A stretch of 27,560 nt of DNA from a virus. Within the stretch, counting starts at the first letter, position 1. Every line of letters begins with the position of its first letter. The position numbers and the translations under genes were made by a program. Below are positions 19,795 through 27,560 of this stretch, one piece after another. The stretch spans positions 1 through 27,560 of IMG/VR virus record IMGVR_UViG_3300012936_000129; one strand, 5' to 3'. The notes under the pieces are model-generated. The model worked only from the letters and a program-made list of their open reading frames with translations. It made no database searches and had not been told where the DNA came from.

Positions 19795-19802
19795 TATTTA
19801 TA
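19795..19802 (-). promoter_or_regulatory. T4-type late promoter TATAAATA directly before gp25
   Basis: This is an exact TATAAATA on the minus strand, only 5 nt from the gp25 ATG. By the standard -13 to -6 placement the +1 base is the A of that ATG, implying a leaderless mRNA from this promoter. A run reading AAAAGG lies upstream of the box and could serve as ribosome-binding site on longer readthrough transcripts. Confidence 0.5.
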
Positions 19803-21666: not shown

Positions 21667-22994
21667 ATTAATTTAATCTCCTCTTCGGTATCTAAAGAAA
21701 TACTCGACGAGTTTCTTTTTAATGTCACTGTCATATTATATTCTCCAGTTTTTAGGTCGTGCACTATATTAGTTACTAAGTATTTTCCAGATTGGACTTT
21801 ATTAACTCTTCCTTCTATCTTACCTTTTTCTGTGGTTTCGGGAAGTTCTATTTCTATTACCATTCCCACATTTAATCGAAAGTCGCCCGGAAGTAATATA
21901 GTATGTGATTGGTATTCTAAATTTTCCAAGTGGGAATATATTTTTCCTGTATTGTGATTCTTTTGTTGTGCACTATAGTTTTCTATTTCGTCGAAAGAAC
22001 TACTATTCAGATTGACAAAAAAGTTTTTTGATTGTGGAAAATCTAAAAAGCTTTTCTCTTTTATTTTATTATTTTGTTTTAGATTAGGAAATGGTTTATT
22101 ATTTTCCAAATGAGTATTCTTATTATAGGAATATTTGAATTCTTCTTTACTAGTTTTCTTTTCCGCCACGTCGAATAGGTGTGTAGTAGATGCGTAAGCG
22201 CCTTCTTGGAGTCCCATGAACTTAGATATATTATAATCAGAAGATATTTCTACTATTCTCGTTCTCATTTCTTCGAACCCTTCTATCGATTCAGAATTTT
22301 TTGTGGACGCTTCTCTTAAAAAATATTTATCGAAAGGTTCTTGGTCTATTAATTGTTTTAAACTTTTGAATTTTATTCCATTTGTGAAAGTTTCATAGAA
22401 ATAATAAGGAGTCCCATCATCTACAGCGTTTGCGGTAAGAAAATTTATCGCGGAAAGTGGTTTTAATTTAGGAAATACTCCTTTCATTTGTGGTGTCGCG
22501 GTATCTATATCTAGTTTTTCATTAGGGATATCCAAATCACTTGTACATATATTTTTTATCGTTTTTCCTACACTTCCACTGAATGATTTCCCCAAAGAGA
22601 CTACTTGATTAGTGAATATATGCGGAGAAACACACCTCATCTGATACGTCGTCAAACCACGTTTTTGTTTAACAAAATTCAATATCTCAATTATACGACA
22701 TTCGAGTGAATATTTTTCTTTTCCGTAGTGGGCGTTCTTTTCAAATTCAAAGGAAATTTTTTCATTCCCAGAAAGTCTTAATCTTTCTATATAATTTTCT
22801 GTATCACCGACAGAAACGATAAATTCCAGTGCGTTACTCTCAAGATTTTCTATGATTTCTACTCTTGTCACCAAAAAATTTATATCAAAGTCAAAACCTT
22901 CTGAAGTTTTTGTATTATTAGTAGTAAGAATGACAGATTTCCTATTATAGGAATTTGGTAAAATTGTAAAAATATTTGTGGACTTCTCACTCAT
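21663..22994 (-). CDS. 27: Baseplate hub protein gp27-like, 443 aa
   Basis: This is the probable central hub protein. In T4, three gp27 form a torus between tail tube and gp5 spike. The first domain shows the pattern of this family (LVTRVEIIENLESNALEFIV, then RLRLSGNEKISFEFE at about 71-85). A middle region follows with QKRGLTTYQMRCVSPHIFTN (about 114-133) and GVFPKLKPLSAINFLTANAV, the latter typical of hub proteins that fold like gp27 and gpD. Residues about 355-380 (HTILLPGDFRLNVGMVIEIE) fit the tail-protein beta-barrel end. T4 gp27 is 391 aa. The location immediately before gp5, with a 4-nt overlap, strongly supports the call. No Shine-Dalgarno sequence is evident for its own start. Confidence 0.82.
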   Translation of the reverse strand: MSEKSTNIFTILPNSYNRKSVILTTNNTKTSEGFDFDINFLVTRVEIIENLESNALEFIVSVGDTENYIERLRLSGNEKISFEFEKNAHYGKEKYSLECRIIEILNFVKQKRGLTTYQMRCVSPHIFTNQVVSLGKSFSGSVGKTIKNICTSDLDIPNEKLDIDTATPQMKGVFPKLKPLSAINFLTANAVDDGTPYYFYETFTNGIKFKSLKQLIDQEPFDKYFLREASTKNSESIEGFEEMRTRIVEISSDYNISKFMGLQEGAYASTTHLFDVAEKKTSKEEFKYSYNKNTHLENNKPFPNLKQNNKIKEKSFLDFPQSKNFFVNLNSSSFDEIENYSAQQKNHNTGKIYSHLENLEYQSHTILLPGDFRLNVGMVIEIELPETTEKGKIEGRVNKVQSGKYLVTNIVHDLKTGEYNMTVTLKRNSSSISLDTEEEIKLI

Positions 22995-23005
22995 AAGTTA
23001 TTTTT

Positions 23006-23947
23006 TTAAATGTTCAGAATTTTTTCAAATTCCGAGACAAAATCTCCTATAAATTCTGGATTTATTACTCTTATTTTTGACCTTTCGTCGTTGAGTTCTT
23101 GAATGTACTCTCTATTAGTCATAATAGTTAATGCAGTTTCTGATTTTGCCAATCTTTCTGATGGAATATTTAATTCATTTTCCAATCCTTCTTCTATTGC
23201 GTAAGAAGGTTGATATAAATTTGAGATAGTTCCTGTACTTCCCTCGTCCAAAGGAGAAGGATCGTTAATAAATACCTCATTAGTATAAATTCTTTTTTCT
23301 ATTTTTCCTGTTACGGGATCTGTTTCGTTAATATAATAGTGATGTGGTGCATCAGCGTATGGATATACTATATGAGTTTGGATGGAATCGTCTGTCGTTC
23401 CTCCTTTTACTGATTCTTTATTAACTCCATCACCAATAAATGCAGCGTTTCCACTTCCTAACGTCACATTTTGGACTATGAGTTGATTCATATCAATATT
23501 TTTTCTTGTCAAAGTTCCAACAGCGCCAGAACTTCCTCCCGTAATCGTTTCTCCTAACTGAAATTTTCCAGAAATAGAATTATTTGTTCCTAAAATTCCA
23601 TTATCGTCTGGTAATACAGAAGGATTACTCGTAATTGCAAATCCATTATACTCAGTATTTAAATATTCCAGTAAAAGTTCTTGTGACATGGGCCAAACTT
23701 TATATCCATCGTGAAGAAATTCATTCACAACAAAAAAAGTCCAGTAGAAATTTGGATTTTGATATAATCTTTGAGAAACTATATCTGGTCTTTCTCCATT
23801 TTTTACTTCGTACTTCATATACAAAGAAGGAGAATCGACAAATTTTTGGAGAGGTCGCACACTTCTATAGATATCTACTATTTTTTGAATTGTTCCTGTA
23901 CGATTTATGTCATAATCTACTTTTGGAAATAATTTAAAGAAACTCAT
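23006..23947 (-). CDS. 53: Baseplate wedge subunit gp53, 313 aa
   Basis: This is a wedge protein that in T4 holds adjacent wedges together around the hub. The N-terminal 100 residues are diagnostic: FKLFPKVDYDINRTGTIQKI, and the LysM-like segment VKNGERPDIVSQRLYQNPNF followed by YWTFFVVNE (about 48-76) and WPMSQELLLEYL. T4 gp53 is 196 aa, so this copy is about 115 residues longer. Much of the excess is residues about 125-185, a GETITGGSSGAVGTL-type beta module that also appears in gp8 and in the N-terminal part of the giant fibre. The C-terminus (NDERSKIRVINPEFIGDFVS) is again typical. A strong AGGAGG precedes the start, overlapping the gp48-like gene end, with a 1-nt gap between genes. Confidence 0.92.
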   Translation of the reverse strand: MSFFKLFPKVDYDINRTGTIQKIVDIYRSVRPLQKFVDSPSLYMKYEVKNGERPDIVSQRLYQNPNFYWTFFVVNEFLHDGYKVWPMSQELLLEYLNTEYNGFAITSNPSVLPDDNGILGTNNSISGKFQLGETITGGSSGAVGTLTRKNIDMNQLIVQNVTLGSGNAAFIGDGVNKESVKGGTTDDSIQTHIVYPYADAPHHYYINETDPVTGKIEKRIYTNEVFINDPSPLDEGSTGTISNLYQPSYAIEEGLENELNIPSERLAKSETALTIMTNREYIQELNDERSKIRVINPEFIGDFVSEFEKILNI

Positions 23948-23948
23948 A

Positions 23949-24776
23949 TTATCCTCCTATCTCTAATTCATCATATAAAGTATTCGCAAGTACTCTTCTT
24001 TGTTCTACATTATCTAAATCATTATCGTCGATATATAAATCTTGTCTTACGAGTTGTCTTTGTTCCTGGAATCCTAAAGAAATGGAAGTATCTGTCGGAG
24101 CGCCATCTTTAAAATACATATTTCCACCTTGTTGATTATAATTAGTATTTAATGAAGTTAAATAACTATCTTTTATTGTAGGGAGAAACTTATTTATTTT
24201 TCCATCTGGAGTATGAAAACTAATTCTAAAGAGTGGTGGATATTCTAATGCAAATCCTGTTCCTATTTTTCTAGGATACATAAATTTCCTAAATGTGTTT
24301 TCTATTTTTCTAATAATATCTGATTCTTTTTCAGTAGTGGGCATTAACTGGAAGTTAAAATTAAAATTTCTTATCTGCATATCATTAAAAGTCGCGGTCG
24401 ACATATTATTTACCGCCACGTTATTAGTTACTAATCCTACTTGAGTGGCACCTTCGAGTGTACCACCAGTCATTTGATTAAGTACCGCCGCCGCTATCGC
24501 GATTGATTCTCTATCTTTTCCTTTTACGTTTTCTCTGACCTGTTCTTCAGTCTGTCTATTTTCTTCAAAAGCCTTTATCGCACCTAAGTTTATAGAATCA
24601 TAAGACGCACCATCAGCTATTTGGAAGTCCATAGGTAGAAAAAGATTAATTGATTTACTCGAACCCATATCCATTTTACCAGTTTTTGCGACTCTTGTTC
24701 TTATAAGAAATCTGACAAAAGGTCTATCCTCTACGTTTAGAGGAAATCTTAATGAATTTTCGTTATCTTGTGACAT
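23949..24776 (-). CDS. 48: Baseplate tail-tube cap protein, gp48-like, 275 aa
   Basis: This is a tail-tube-associated baseplate protein of the gp48/gp54 group, which has a tube-protein fold and forms the first rings on the hub from which the tube polymerises. Evidence is the region from about residue 125: FNFNFQLMPTTEKESDIIRK, FRKFMYPRKIGTGFALEYPP, FRISFHTPDGKINKFLPTIK, then LTSLNTNYNQQGG, KDGAPTDTSISLGFQEQRQL. T4 gp48 is 364 aa and gp54 is 320 aa, so gp54 identity cannot be excluded. gp48 is preferred from its place at the head of a baseplate operon and from overall pattern. AAGGG 7 nt before the ATG is the ribosome-binding site, and a TATAAATA late promoter lies at 24821. Confidence 0.78.
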   Translation of the reverse strand: MSQDNENSLRFPLNVEDRPFVRFLIRTRVAKTGKMDMGSSKSINLFLPMDFQIADGASYDSINLGAIKAFEENRQTEEQVRENVKGKDRESIAIAAAVLNQMTGGTLEGATQVGLVTNNVAVNNMSTATFNDMQIRNFNFNFQLMPTTEKESDIIRKIENTFRKFMYPRKIGTGFALEYPPLFRISFHTPDGKINKFLPTIKDSYLTSLNTNYNQQGGNMYFKDGAPTDTSISLGFQEQRQLVRQDLYIDDNDLDNVEQRRVLANTLYDELEIGG

Positions 24777-24786
24777 ATTTTTCCCT

Positions 24787-24794
24787 TATAAATA
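24787..24794 (+). promoter_or_regulatory. T4-type late promoter TATAAATA, rightward (gp4)
   Basis: This is an exact plus-strand TATAAATA. The predicted start is near 24800, leaving about 29 nt of leader with AAGAG as a weak ribosome-binding site 8 nt before the gp4 ATG at 24829. It lies downstream, in leftward terms, of the opposing promoter at 24821, so the two transcripts begin inside a shared 52-nt gap. Confidence 0.7.
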
Positions 24795-24820
24795 GTATAG
24801 TAATTAATTAACTACAAGAG

Positions 24821-24828
24821 TATTTATA
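24821..24828 (-). promoter_or_regulatory. T4-type late promoter TATAAATA, leftward (baseplate operon)
   Basis: This is an exact minus-strand TATAAATA, abutting the gp4 start codon. The predicted start is near 24815, leaving about 39 nt of leader to the gp48-like ATG at 24776. It probably drives the leftward baseplate operon. It opposes and overlaps the transcript of the 24787 promoter. Confidence 0.7.
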
Positions 24829-25275
24829 ATGGCTTATAAAGGGAAATATACAATAAAACATAAAGATAAGTACCTCGGTGATCCTACCAAGGTCGTATAT
24901 CGTTCGTTATGGGAAAGACAAACATTTAAATGGTGTGAGAAAAGTCCCAAAGTAAAAAAATGGAACTCGGAAGAGATAGTAGTTCCTTATAAATGTAAAA
25001 CAGATAATAAACTCCATCGTTACTATGTGGATTTATTAGTAGAGTTAGAAAACAAAGAAATTATTTTAGTAGAAATTAAACCTAAAAAAGAAACAAAACC
25101 ACCTAAAAATCCCAAAAGAAAAACTAAAAGATATGTTAATGAAGTAATGACATATATTAAAAATACTTCTAAGTGGGAGGCCGCTAAACAATACGCGGAC
25201 CACAAGGGATGGAAATTTCAAGTTTGGACAGAAGATACTTTATCTAATCTTGGTATCAAACTTCTGAAAGGATAG
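24829..25275 (+). CDS. 4: Head-completion protein gp4, endonuclease-fold, 148 aa
   Basis: This is a head-completion protein. In T4, gp4 (also called gp50/65) is needed to finish DNA-filled heads before tail joining. The sequence shows a restriction-endonuclease or TnsA-like pattern: VVYRSLWERQTFKWCE with Glu29, then HRYYVDLLVEL with Asp68 and ILVEIKPKKE with Glu82 and Lys84. Together these give an E...D...ExK set compatible with a PD-(D/E)XK nuclease site. The family match in length (about 150 aa) and motif order is good. The middle is very Lys/Pro-rich (residues 84-101), likely DNA-contacting. It is the first rightward gene, with a late promoter at 24787. In T4 gene 4 lies next to gene 53. 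Here they are close but divergently transcribed. Confidence 0.9.
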   Translation: MAYKGKYTIKHKDKYLGDPTKVVYRSLWERQTFKWCEKSPKVKKWNSEEIVVPYKCKTDNKLHRYYVDLLVELENKEIILVEIKPKKETKPPKNPKRKTKRYVNEVMTYIKNTSKWEAAKQYADHKGWKFQVWTEDTLSNLGIKLLKG

Positions 25276-25283
25276 TATAAATA
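25276..25283 (+). promoter_or_regulatory. T4-type late promoter TATAAATA directly before the 197-aa gene
   Basis: This is an exact plus-strand TATAAATA beginning right after the gp4 stop and ending 5 nt before the ATG at 25289. Predicted +1 coincides with the start codon, as at gp25. The segment TATAAATACTTATA can also fold as TATAA/TTATA, which on readthrough mRNA would bring the upstream AAAGGAT closer to the ATG. Confidence 0.5.
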
Positions 25284-25288
25284 CTTAT

Positions 25289-25882
25289 ATGGCGTCTTTA
25301 TTCGATACATTACAGGCAAACGCACAAAGGGCTGGGATTACCGCGAGAACTCGTGCGTCCAAGAAGTGGTTTCAAAAGAATATTGAGAAACTAAAAAAAC
25401 CTTCTAGGTCGGCGTTACTAAAGGACCCTGCACTTGATCCTGTAAGTAAAGAGTATAGGGGAAATATGTATATGTATATTTACGACCCTAAAGGAAAAAC
25501 AGAATTACCTTATTACGATAGATTTCCATTAACTATTATGATTGAAGGATATAAAGATGGATTTTTAGGATTAAATTTACATTACTTACGACCAGATATT
25601 AGGGCCAAATTTTTAGAAGAGTTAATGAGATTAGCGCCTGGTAATGTAAGAGAGAACACAAGATTATTAAAGGCCAAATATAGTTTATTACAATCAACAA
25701 GGAAGTTTAAAGAATTTAGACCCTGTATAAAAAGATATTTAGGGACTCAAATTAGGTCTCGATTAGTAAGAGTTCCCATGACAGAATGGGAAATCGCAAT
25801 CTTTCTACCAACTGAACAGTTTGTGAAACAACAAAAAGGTGCGATTTGGAATGAAAGTATTAGAATCGCGAGAAAAACATAA
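25289..25882 (+). CDS. Virion or head-neck-type protein of uncertain function, 197 aa
   Basis: I do not recognise this gene securely. It is a basic protein with an N-terminal helix (SLFDTLQANAQRAGITARTR followed by KKWFQKNI). A conserved-looking centre (YMYIYDPKGKTELPYYDRFP, then IEGYKDGFLGLNLHYLRPDI, about residues 61-107) and a C-terminal part ending SRLVRVPMTEWEIAIFLPTE follow. The DPKxKxxLPYYDxFPL...GFLGLNLHYL pattern occurs in proteins of many T4-like phages near head and tail completion genes. In T4 gene 2, the DNA-end protector, adjoins gene 4, so a gp2-like role is possible but based on position only. It starts 13 nt after gp4, with a late-promoter octamer in the gap. It ends in a TAATG overlap with the next gene. 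Confidence 0.7.
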   Translation: MASLFDTLQANAQRAGITARTRASKKWFQKNIEKLKKPSRSALLKDPALDPVSKEYRGNMYMYIYDPKGKTELPYYDRFPLTIMIEGYKDGFLGLNLHYLRPDIRAKFLEELMRLAPGNVRENTRLLKAKYSLLQSTRKFKEFRPCIKRYLGTQIRSRLVRVPMTEWEIAIFLPTEQFVKQQKGAIWNESIRIARKT

Positions 25883-26544
25883 TGGCCAGTATAGATAAAT
25901 TAAAATCAACAATCACATCTCGTGGAGGAATGGCACGAAAGAATAGATATAACGTATTTTTTACTCCTCCTACTATGTCACTATTAAATATAAACCCACA
26001 GGCGATTTTATCTAATGTGTTGTCTGGTCAGGGAGTTAGTGTTGGAACTTTAATAAATGATCCTAGAGATATATCACTACTATGTGATTCAGTACAGTTA
26101 CCGAGTAGAACAGTATCTACTATGGAATATCAAGACCAATTTCAAGTTATAAAAATGCCCTATACCTTCGCTGATGGTGAAGTTACTATAGGTTTCTTAC
26201 TAACCAAAGATTATTATATGAAAAATTTATTTGATAATTGGATGGATAGTATTATAAACGCACCTGATGAAGAGGGTAACTCGGTCCCTTATCAGTTGGG
26301 ATATAAAACCGATTACTCAACGGATATAATTATTCAACAGTTAGATGAACAAGATATACCCGTTTATGGAGTTAAGTTAATAAATGCGTTCCCTACCTCT
26401 ATCGGCCAAATAGATTTAGGGAACCAAAGCGAAAATGAATTTTCCAAAGTAGATGTTACTTTTGGATATGATAAATATGAAGTAGAAGGACCATTAAGTA
26501 GTACTATATCGCAACTTACTTCTGGACTTTCTATATTTGGATAA
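25882..26544 (+). CDS. Tail-tube-fold protein, possibly baseplate tube initiator gp54-like, 220 aa
   Basis: This is probably a member of the tail-tube protein superfamily (gp19/gp48/gp54). Supporting features are the start ARKNRYNVFFTPP, the LCDSVQLPSRTVSTMEYQDQ block (about residues 67-86; typical of tube proteins, where a Cys or hydrophobic precedes LPG/PSR), MPYTFADGEVTIGFLLTKDY, DNWMDSI and the late GVKLINAFPTSIGQIDLGNQ followed by KVDVTFGYDKYEVE. These match the tube-protein strand order. At 220 aa it is longer than T4 gp19 (163 aa) and shorter than gp54 (320 aa). Being next to gp26 and opposite the gp48-like gene favours the tube initiator over the major tube protein, which is normally beside the sheath gene. 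The ATG overlaps the preceding stop as TAATG. Confidence 0.75.
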   Translation: MASIDKLKSTITSRGGMARKNRYNVFFTPPTMSLLNINPQAILSNVLSGQGVSVGTLINDPRDISLLCDSVQLPSRTVSTMEYQDQFQVIKMPYTFADGEVTIGFLLTKDYYMKNLFDNWMDSIINAPDEEGNSVPYQLGYKTDYSTDIIIQQLDEQDIPVYGVKLINAFPTSIGQIDLGNQSENEFSKVDVTFGYDKYEVEGPLSSTISQLTSGLSIFG

Positions 26545-26550
26545 TATTAT

Positions 26551-26555
26551 AGGAG
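26551..26555 (+). promoter_or_regulatory. Strong ribosome-binding site AGGAG for gp26
   Basis: AGGAG lies 7 nt before the ATG at 26563, in the 18-nt gap after the tube-like gene. It fixes the gp26 start and suggests efficient initiation independent of the upstream gene. Confidence 0.75.
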
Positions 26556-26562
26556 AATAATT

Positions 26563-27282
26563 ATGGGATTACCCCAAGTGAATGCGTCCAAGTACGAGGC
26601 GATTATACCAAGTACTGGACAGAAAATAGAGTTTAGACCCTTTTTAGTTAAAGAAGAAAAACTCCTTATGGTAGCTTTAGAATCAAAAGATAATAAACTT
26701 ATCGTAAGAACTATGAAAGATGTATTAAATTCGTGTATCTATACAGATGTCGATATTAATACTTTTACTACTTTCGATTTGGAAGAGCTCTTTTTAAGAC
26801 TTCGATCCAAATCAGTGGGAGAGAAAGTAGAACTAAAATTAAAATGTGAAGAATGTAATTATGAAAACCCACAAACAGTTAATCTTGATGAATTAAACGT
26901 TGAGGTTAATCGAGAAAGAAATAATGTTATTATGATTAATGACGAAGTTGGTATTGAGTTTAAATATCCATCTTTAACTGATTTAGAAAATCTTGATTCA
27001 TCTGATGGAAAAGATACGAAAGAACAACTTCAAGTCATGAGTCATTTAATTATTAAGAGTATTAAAAGTATTTTTGATAATGATAATGTTTATCCGGCAG
27101 TCGACCAAACAGACGAAGAGTTGGAAAACTTTATTGATACTTTAAATTCTGGACAGTTTAAGGAGATTACAGACTGGTTAAGTAATATGCCTGGACTAGT
27201 CCATAACATAGAATATAAGTGTAATAAATGTGGACACGAGAATAATCTGGAGTTAAGAGGTCTCCAAAGTTTTTTTACTTAG
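26563..27282 (+). CDS. 26: Baseplate hub assembly protein gp26 (T4_baseplate family), 239 aa
   Basis: This is a hub assembly protein of the T4 gp26 type (T4 gp26: 208 aa). The N-terminus (YEAIIPSTGQKIEFRPFLVK followed by EEKLLMVA, about residues 11-38) is diagnostic. It carries two CxxC pairs (Cys95/Cys98 in KCEECNYEN and Cys220/Cys223 in KCNKCGHEN), which probably bind one zinc ion. The frame-0 product ends LQSFFT with TAG at 27280-27282. The last Phe codons lie in a seven-T run (27270-27276) where ribosomes may slip back one base and enter an open -1 frame, giving a 303-aa extended form. Functionally this would parallel tail assembly chaperone pairs such as lambda G/GT. The start is supported by AGGAG at 26551. 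Confidence 0.9.
   Translation: MGLPQVNASKYEAIIPSTGQKIEFRPFLVKEEKLLMVALESKDNKLIVRTMKDVLNSCIYTDVDINTFTTFDLEELFLRLRSKSVGEKVELKLKCEECNYENPQTVNLDELNVEVNRERNNVIMINDEVGIEFKYPSLTDLENLDSSDGKDTKEQLQVMSHLIIKSIKSIFDNDNVYPAVDQTDEELENFIDTLNSGQFKEITDWLSNMPGLVHNIEYKCNKCGHENNLELRGLQSFFT
27255..27276 (+). promoter_or_regulatory. Probable programmed -1 ribosomal frameshift signal
   Basis: The heptamer T TTT TTT spans 27270-27276 in the zero frame as ..T/TTT/TTT, so both tRNAs can re-pair perfectly after a one-base backward slip. A Shine-Dalgarno-like AAGAGG lies at 27255-27260, 9 nt before the heptamer, close to the spacing of the stimulator in E. coli dnaX. The zero-frame stop TAG follows one codon later. I see no obvious downstream hairpin or pseudoknot. 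Slippage here joins gp26 to the open -1 frame ending at 27473. Confidence 0.75.
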
Positions 27283-27473
27283 GCCTTTCACATGATAATC
27301 TCGTAAACCATTATAAAACTAATTTCGCGATGATGCAGAATCACGGATATAGTTTAACGGAATTAGATAATATGTTACCATGGGAAAGAGAAATATATGT
27401 CGCCCTACTAATAGAACATATAAAAGAAGAGAACGAGCGCAATAAGGCTCAACAGTCAAAAAATAGAGGATAA
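27276..27473 (+). CDS. 51: gp51-like assembly domain in the -1 frame of gp26 (frameshift extension, 65 aa)
   Basis: After slippage at 27270-27276 the -1 frame encodes 65 residues: YLGLSHDNLVNHYKTNFAMM, QNHGYSLTELDNMLPWEREI, YVALLIEHIKEENERNKAQQ, SKNRG. The SLTELDNMLPWEREIYVALL part is the signature of the short gp51-type hub assembly catalysts annotated after gp26 in marine T4-like phages. The fused product would be 238 + 65 = 303 aa. The only ATG codons in this frame near the start are at 27330 and 27333. They would give a 47-residue protein without a Shine-Dalgarno sequence and would skip the LGLSHDNLVNHYKTNF part. No ATG, GTG or TTG exists between the last upstream in-frame stop (27243) and 27330. 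Standalone translation from 27330 remains possible but is less well supported. Confidence 0.75.
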   Translation, partial: YLGLSHDNLVNHYKTNFAMMQNHGYSLTELDNMLPWEREIYVALLIEHIKEENERNKAQQSKNRG

Positions 27474-27477
27474 AAAA

Positions 27478-27560
27478 ATGGCAGAAGATAACGCAAGAAA
27501 TGAAGTTGAATTAGACCTAGAAAAATATGATAGTCTAATTAATAGTCTTCACGATAAAGA
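27478..27560 (+). CDS. Start of a further tail or hub gene, cut by the window edge
   Basis: An open frame starts with ATG at 27478 and runs off the window after 27 complete codons (MAEDNARNEVELDLEKYDSL, INSLHDK). A good AGAGGA site lies 7 nt upstream, overlapping the end of the gp51-like frame. The fragment is acidic and probably helical, but too short to assign. By analogy with other tails, the gene after a frameshifted assembly chaperone is often the tape measure, so a gp29-like or tape-measure protein is a guess from position only. Confidence 0.6.
   Translation, partial: MAEDNARNEVELDLEKYDSLINSLHDK

Follow-up and report, generated by a model that had tools for sequence, protein, structure and literature searches.

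The gap between two divergent structural genes in this viral DNA raises the question of how late transcription could be started in both directions from so little sequence, and why the two promoters would cross. The stretch analysed here, 27,560 nucleotides at its full length and called the window below, has a 52-nt gap (24777-24828) between a gp48-type gene on the left and gp4 on the right. The original prediction had placed there two opposed late promoters, each with a copy of the octamer TATAAATA, and the coordinates and strands of both octamers are borne out (Table 1), as is the gap itself, whose flanking genes match PHROG 230 and PHROG 218. The minus-strand box was said to abut the gp4 ATG, and the ATG, at 24829, does follow directly beyond the end of the box. 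According to PMC1524935, the T4 late box occupies positions -13 to -6 relative to the RNA start. This predicts starts at 24800 (+) and 24815 (-) and 5' leaders that are complementary over 16 nt; simple arithmetic thus reproduces the starts and the overlap of about 16 nt that had been proposed. That each promoter fires through the other is sound as geometry, and interference between polymerases is to be expected from it.

Table 1. Positions in the window of the gap's putative promoter elements and flanking genes
Feature	Position	Strand	Remarks
Late promoter box TATAAATA of gp4	24787..24794	+	Positions -13 to -6 of the predicted start
Late promoter box TATAAATA of the gp48-type gene	24821..24828	-	Occupies the stretch between the likely gp4 Shine-Dalgarno sequence and the ATG
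Predicted overlap of the two 5' leaders, GTAATTAATTAACTAC	24800..24815		Arithmetic from a box at -13 to -6
Likely Shine-Dalgarno sequence of gp4, AAGAG	24816..24820	+	Assigned by eye
Likely Shine-Dalgarno sequence of the gp48-type gene, AAGGGA	24782..24787	-	Assigned by eye
gp48-type baseplate tail tube cap gene, left partner, 275 aa	23949..24776	-	PHROG 230, E 3e-33
gp4 head completion/head closure gene, right partner, 148 aa	24829..25275	+	PHROG 218, E 2.4e-54

Several sequence features of T4-type late promoters are present on both strands of the gap. Both octamers are perfect and stand upstream of late genes (tail tube cap and head completion), and by sequence they form a face-to-face pair on opposite strands, each directed through the other. 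They lie 44 nt and 34 nt from their own start codons, within the ordinary range of late boxes and towards its upper part. The 26 nt between them contain 6 G or C, placing an AT-rich segment just downstream of each box, and the predicted +1 base is a G on its own strand at both starts. A sigma-70 promoter seems unlikely: the region 24600-25000 has a single weak sigma-70-like match, no more than its shuffles (1.6). A terminator-like hairpin with a T run lies at 24893-24872 on the minus strand, inside gp4 and just upstream of the minus promoter (1 found against 0.1 expected); it could protect that promoter against leftward read-through. The gp4 protein belongs to the TnsA-like endonuclease family (PF08722, E 1.3e-18), and its gene is followed on the right, in order, by the DNA end protector gene (gp2), the tail tube gene and baseplate hub genes. 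Positions 22000-27560 match the DNA of 24 phage records; 23 of these are by name marine-bacterial phages or marine viruses, and none reaches 80% coverage.

An AT-rich octamer might arise by chance within an AT-rich genome, and single octamers in the window are indeed about as frequent as expected (9 against 6.3; 21 of 100 shuffles reach 9). Their number by itself is unremarkable and near chance. The opposed pair speaks against this explanation: one pair within 45 nt is observed, and at least one arose in just 3 of 200 first-order Markov sequences. It is, however, the conservation of the pair in relatives that leads us to reject chance. A search of viral contigs with the gp4 of the window gave 80 loci (L001-L080), 76 of them with a complete gap and 4 cut off within it. 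Among the matches listed, both perfect octamers stand face to face in 76 of the 76 close relatives with an intact gap, at a spacing of 17-19 or 23-26 nt and never of 20-22 nt, two bands that may reflect clade history or helical phase. (The 7-nt core scan described below takes a spacing of 15 nt for one locus of this set, which has overlapping boxes.) Of the 76, 71 gave a match to the gp48 partner, at identities down to about 30%.

Four further gp4 queries (Mosig, Syn33, C48C1 and T4) gave 249 loci. Each of the five lists holds the best 80 loci, except that of T4, which has 9; the total is 329, and 322 have sufficient flank. They were scanned with the core [AC]TAAATA, which covers the CTAAATA form known for Aeh1, over a region that includes boxes overlapping the ATG. 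Among the matches listed, 288 of 289 divergent loci have the core pair face to face, L274 being the sole exception. So do 4 of the 5 loci at which no neighbour could be assigned, and none of the 28 codirectional loci does, gp4 being preceded there by a gene on its own strand. The codirectional loci represent 10 distinct sequences, 27 of the loci coming from the C48C1 set (e.g., L396 and L409), and both boxes are missing within 90 nt of gp4 at all 28. The pair therefore depends on a divergent neighbour. Counted as distinct 70-nt sequences among the matches listed, it is present in 41/41, 56/57, 61/61, 31/31 and 5/5 of the five sets, against shuffled means of 0.55, 0.68, 0.09, 0.07 and 0.02; back-to-back pairs number zero in these sets, and the five have no sequence in common. 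With 194 of 195 distinct divergent gaps carrying the pair among the matches listed, and shuffled means below 0.7 per set, chance is ruled out as a source of the pair, and we give it a practically negligible probability. Comparing both octamers and their spacing in relatives was the check that had been suggested for this gap, with conservation of one octamer only as the contrary outcome; the relatives listed keep both, in 76 of 76 close cases and in 288 of 289 divergent loci.

The boxes would each be read, bare, by the phage late sigma factor gp55 together with gp33 and the gp45 sliding clamp, and genes for this machinery occur in the relatives. The gp33 co-activator family was found in 10 of 10 records, and the gp55 family in 5 of 10 (G001, which is the longest near relative, Mosig, Melnitz, HTVC008M and T4); the 5 records without a gp55 match are fragments of 35-66 kb. 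The gp55 family search used the PHROG of T4 gp55, the T4 gene being located by ORF length. A search with a Rhizobium phage sigma factor as bait returned nothing convincing (best E, 0.058), and the window, itself a 27.6-kb fragment, has no match to gp33 or gp55. The base composition at the predicted starts bears on the same question: in four sets of distinct gaps, the predicted +1 base is never C on either strand, with A or T commonest, and T precedes it at a frequency of at least 75% in 5 of 8 columns. As the gaps are C-poor, this pattern gives only slight support to both starts being real. The original prediction of two opposed T4-type late promoters is thus supported by the conservation of the pair and by the occurrence of gp33 (10/10) and gp55 (5/10) in records of relatives, and both promoters are, on the comparative evidence, very likely real and conserved. 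That both boxes fire is inferred; even for T4, PMC2988020 indicates that not all of the 50 listed late sites were shown to be active in vivo.

How widely the crossed layout extends was viewed at the gp4 junction of 24 named phages, a non-random sample hand-picked from the hit lists. Opposed boxes are present in 15 of them: C48C1, MED4-213, Mosig, Melnitz, Syn33, P-SSM7, P-SSM3, P-SSM2, S-8S55, ACG-2014f, S-PM2, Syn9, T4, PhaR5 and SKML-39. Three carry back-to-back boxes (phiAS5, PVA23 and HTVC008M) and two a single recognisable box (RB43 and K356). IME-SM1 has no box by our definition, with opposed TTAAATA and TATTTAC present, and gp4 is codirectional without the pair in the remaining three (F356, with one plus-strand core, GAP32 and RL2RES). 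The crossed layout is not universal. At the gene 53/gene 4 junction of T4, the boxes are opposed as TATAAATA-7 nt-TATTTATA, and the divergent partner of gp4 is gp53 (PHROG 232). The partner in P-SSM2, S-8S55 and ACG-2014f has no annotation beyond hypothetical, and the boxes are opposed at each of these three junctions. In MED4-213, Syn33 and similar phages, a box even overlaps a start codon.

The specificity of the arrangement was examined by searching for a strict octamer pair with 12-30 nt between the boxes. It occurs once each in MED4-213, Mosig and Melnitz, at the gp4 junction, and once in each of six near-relative contigs, always at the gp4 junction. The seven remaining named phages scanned alongside MED4-213, Mosig and Melnitz lack it, having variant boxes or another spacing; HTVC008M, S-PM2 and Syn9, scanned with the six contigs, have none. 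Some further arrangements were seen elsewhere. A strict opposed pair in the T4 record OZ209023.1 (70830-70862) lies within a longer inverted repeat, AGAACATAAATA...TATTTATGTTCT, where the gene calls show no divergent junction. A second T4 pair, with its boxes 6 nt apart, has a homing endonuclease gene on one side and, on the other, a gene annotated as minor head protein inhibitor of protease. Near 115389-115409 of the same T4 record, two divergent baseplate hub genes are separated by boxes with bases in common, TATTTATAAATA, and an overlapped box cluster in Mosig (60971-60990) resembles this T4 form. The back-to-back boxes of phiAS5 (L450, gap 640-691) adjoin each other and together make up a perfect 14-bp palindrome, TATTTAGCTAAATA.

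The position of the minus-strand box directly beside the gp4 ATG admits another reading, in which the box is mere ribosome-site spacing and the gap has only one promoter. In most near relatives, TATTTATA exactly parts a purine-rich stretch from the ATG, as such a spacer would. The box nevertheless moves relative to the ATG: it lies 10 nt away in one group of relatives (the L042/L064/L067 type) and overlaps the ATG by one base in others, and it is still kept, which argues that it is kept as a box and not as spacing. Moreover, it is gone from all 28 codirectional loci, although gp4 is retained there. We rejected the spacer reading on these grounds and consider it most improbable.

The original prediction also proposed that pairing of the two transcripts could balance head-completion and baseplate expression. 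Complementary 5' leaders could pair and tune the translation or stability of both mRNAs, and the 16-nt overlap in the window, with a predicted duplex energy of -16.5 kcal/mol, would be compatible with this, as would the strongest gap of the Syn33 type at -18.2 kcal/mol. These are, however, the extremes of their sets, the window itself providing that of its own. The predicted overlap ranges over 5-16 nt in the window set, 0-8 nt in the Mosig set, 0-13 nt in the Syn33 set, 0 in the C48C1 set and 0-5 nt in the T4 set, with medians of 9, 5, 6, 0 and 4 nt, and median duplex energies for overlaps of at least 3 nt are -8.2, -1.4 and -7.0 kcal/mol, none and +0.8 kcal/mol, respectively. Among the matches listed, 50 of 194 distinct gaps have no overlap, two of these through an odd choice of box by the script; predicted overlap is absent from all 31 distinct C48C1-type gaps and from T4 itself. 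Both likely Shine-Dalgarno sequences in the window, assigned by eye, also lie outside 24800-24815. Complementary leaders are therefore not conserved, the overlap running from 16 nt to none, and antisense balance, rejected as a conserved function, is very unlikely as the function shared by these gaps. The pairing of a head gene with a baseplate gene is likewise weakened as the reason for the layout by changes of partner, to gp53 in T4 and to unnamed proteins elsewhere. With the overlap unconserved and the partner changing while the layout stays, this part of the original prediction is not supported.

Why, then, should the promoters cross? In the reading we favour, the gap is a compact late promoter of T4 type that works both ways, and crossing probably results from the packing of two ordinary promoters of this class. 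In 11 genomes, the median distance to the ATG of late boxes lying 10-60 nt ahead of it is 23-36 nt, and a non-crossed pair at typical distances requires about 62-88 nt. Among the matches listed, 187 of 194 distinct gaps measure 31-62 nt; the other 7 were computed as -26 to 9 nt, probably since the script picked the wrong partner start. A gap too short to hold two typical promoters along with their typical leaders would favour crossing. Back-to-back pairs occur where the gap is long or the boxes lie close to their starts: PVA23 has a long gap of 67 nt, and HTVC008M has a gap of 26 nt with its boxes close, exactly 5 nt from each ATG. In phiAS5, the back-to-back boxes abut, 18 and 20 nt from the starts, in a gap of 52 nt, equal to that of the window. 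Crossing is thus not strictly forced, and the phage of the window could have managed uncrossed boxes with short leaders. One box often lies beyond the ordinary median distance (37-46 nt on the gp48 side in the window's set). Alternatively, a preference for the crossed layout could be what keeps the gap short, and the strictness with which this layout is retained, in 288 of 289 divergent loci among the matches listed, might signify selection on it.

Under the packing reading, the two promoters would serve divergent rows of late genes, with gp48-type and gp53-type genes on the left and gp4, gp2, tail tube and hub genes on the right. Each box would lie inside the leader and ribosome-site region of the other gene. 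Probably one polymerase at a time would occupy the pair, and the two directions would alternate in firing. This exclusion is suggested by the dimensions of the late complex: PMC7892883 gives melting from -12 to +2, and PMC2988020 reports that the clamp in the activated complex lengthens the footprint by 13 bp upstream. On these figures, the predicted melted segments in the window, 24788-24801 and 24814-24827, do not overlap, and two polymerases would hardly fit; at the T4 junction, the predicted melted segments overlap. When set against the spacing of the boxes, such figures lead us to expect that polymerases should exclude each other at the pair. Inner gaps between boxes are 6-26 nt, besides two script choices of 0 (L350 and L351, where the script took boxes with no inner gap, though a plus box is also present farther left).

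The same exclusion could be what was selected. The crossed pair might have been retained for regulation, one start blocking or dislodging the other, so that a shared initiation event ties the two gene rows together. Melting from -12 to +2 (PMC7892883) and the 13-bp upstream footprint (PMC2988020) make double occupancy look impossible at inner gaps of 6-26 nt. The layout is retained in 288 of 289 divergent loci among the matches listed, and phiAS5 shows that a back-to-back pair would fit in 52 nt. Yet any close pair of promoters would exclude mutually, with no need of selection; the partner genes vary between phages, and three named phages have back-to-back pairs. We hold selection for exclusion to be unlikely, and more so a particular form of it, a selected directional switch in which the orientation of the gp45 clamp, hence of forks or nicks, would choose between the head-side and the baseplate-side row. 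Clamp-activated late transcription depends on which strand carries the nick, according to PMC2988020. If the pair can take only one polymerase, the clamp's orientation could select the direction, and alternation could yield a fixed average ratio of the two rows across T4-type phages; this switch seems to us distinctly improbable. Packing over regulation as the cause of the layout is what we infer from these comparisons.

The distance from box to start codon led to a further observation. A perfect late box at 25276-25283 (+) ends exactly 5 nt ahead of the gp2 ATG at 25289, which puts the predicted +1 at the A of the ATG and would give a leaderless late mRNA. Among the matches listed, 51 of the 76 relatives have the gp2 box 5 nt from its ATG, 9 have it at 6 nt and 16 at 21 nt, and the sequence of the 5 nt varies. 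A second box in the window lies exactly 5 nt from an ATG (19795-19802 on the minus strand, ATG 19789). Across 11 phage genomes, 396 late-type boxes have an ATG within 60 nt. The distance is exactly 5 nt for 33 of them, while 4 nt and 6 nt account for one box each. Four heptamers used as controls gave 0-2 at 5 nt, though one of them has peaks of its own (17 at 1 nt and 12 at 4 nt). Boxes at exactly 5 nt make up 12/33 in HTVC008M, 6/41 in Mosig and 5/34 in G001. At L449:1905-1960 (HTVC008M), a 26-nt gap with back-to-back boxes separates the divergent gp4 and DNA end protector genes, and two leaderless mRNAs are predicted from it. Some marine T4-type phages may commonly make late transcripts of this leaderless kind.

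The arrangement indicates that one of the simplest known promoters can be present twice, in crossed copies, within about 50 bp, with the leader of one gene, and even its start codon, forming part of the promoter of the other. The crossed layout occurs from coliphage T4 to marine phages, and edits at this junction are likely to affect both promoters. If crossing were regulatory, it would provide a repressor-free link between two assembly pathways, one that is directly testable in T4. Among titles and the beginnings of abstracts, we found no description of crossed or divergent T4-type late promoters; subscription papers were mostly outside this coverage, and an earlier notice is possible.

The closest likeness is to the T4-type late promoters, which depend on gp55, gp33 and gp45: the octamer TATAAATA is the same, it serves late structural genes, and the gp55 and gp33 families occur in relatives of the window. 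T4 late promoters are described as single promoters in the literature consulted, whereas the two in the window are crossed. The T4 gene 53/gene 4 junction has the same opposed boxes as the window, but its inner gap of 7 nt leaves no predicted leader overlap, unlike the 16 nt here. The late motifs NATAAATA and CTAAATA of cyanophages and Aeh1 have been reported (PMC2984593 and PMC1524935). At the gp4 junction, these forms occur in Syn33, P-SSM7, P-SSM3, P-SSM2, S-8S55 and ACG-2014f, while in the window both strands carry the perfect T4 octamer. Face-to-face promoters with transcriptional interference also exist in the temperate phages 186 and P2, in their early control regions. The window resembles them in having two promoters directed through each other, where interference is expected. 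The 186 and P2 promoters, however, switch two developmental states through repressors, whereas both promoters here would be of one late class, and we know of no repressor for the crossed pair. Symmetry-based bidirectional bacterial promoters share the bases of their -10 elements. The gap in the window is like them in its compact two-way initiation, as predicted, and in its AT-rich -10 boxes. It is unlike them in that its boxes are separate and crossing; the shared-base form is instead that of the T4 hub genes, TATTTATAAATA.
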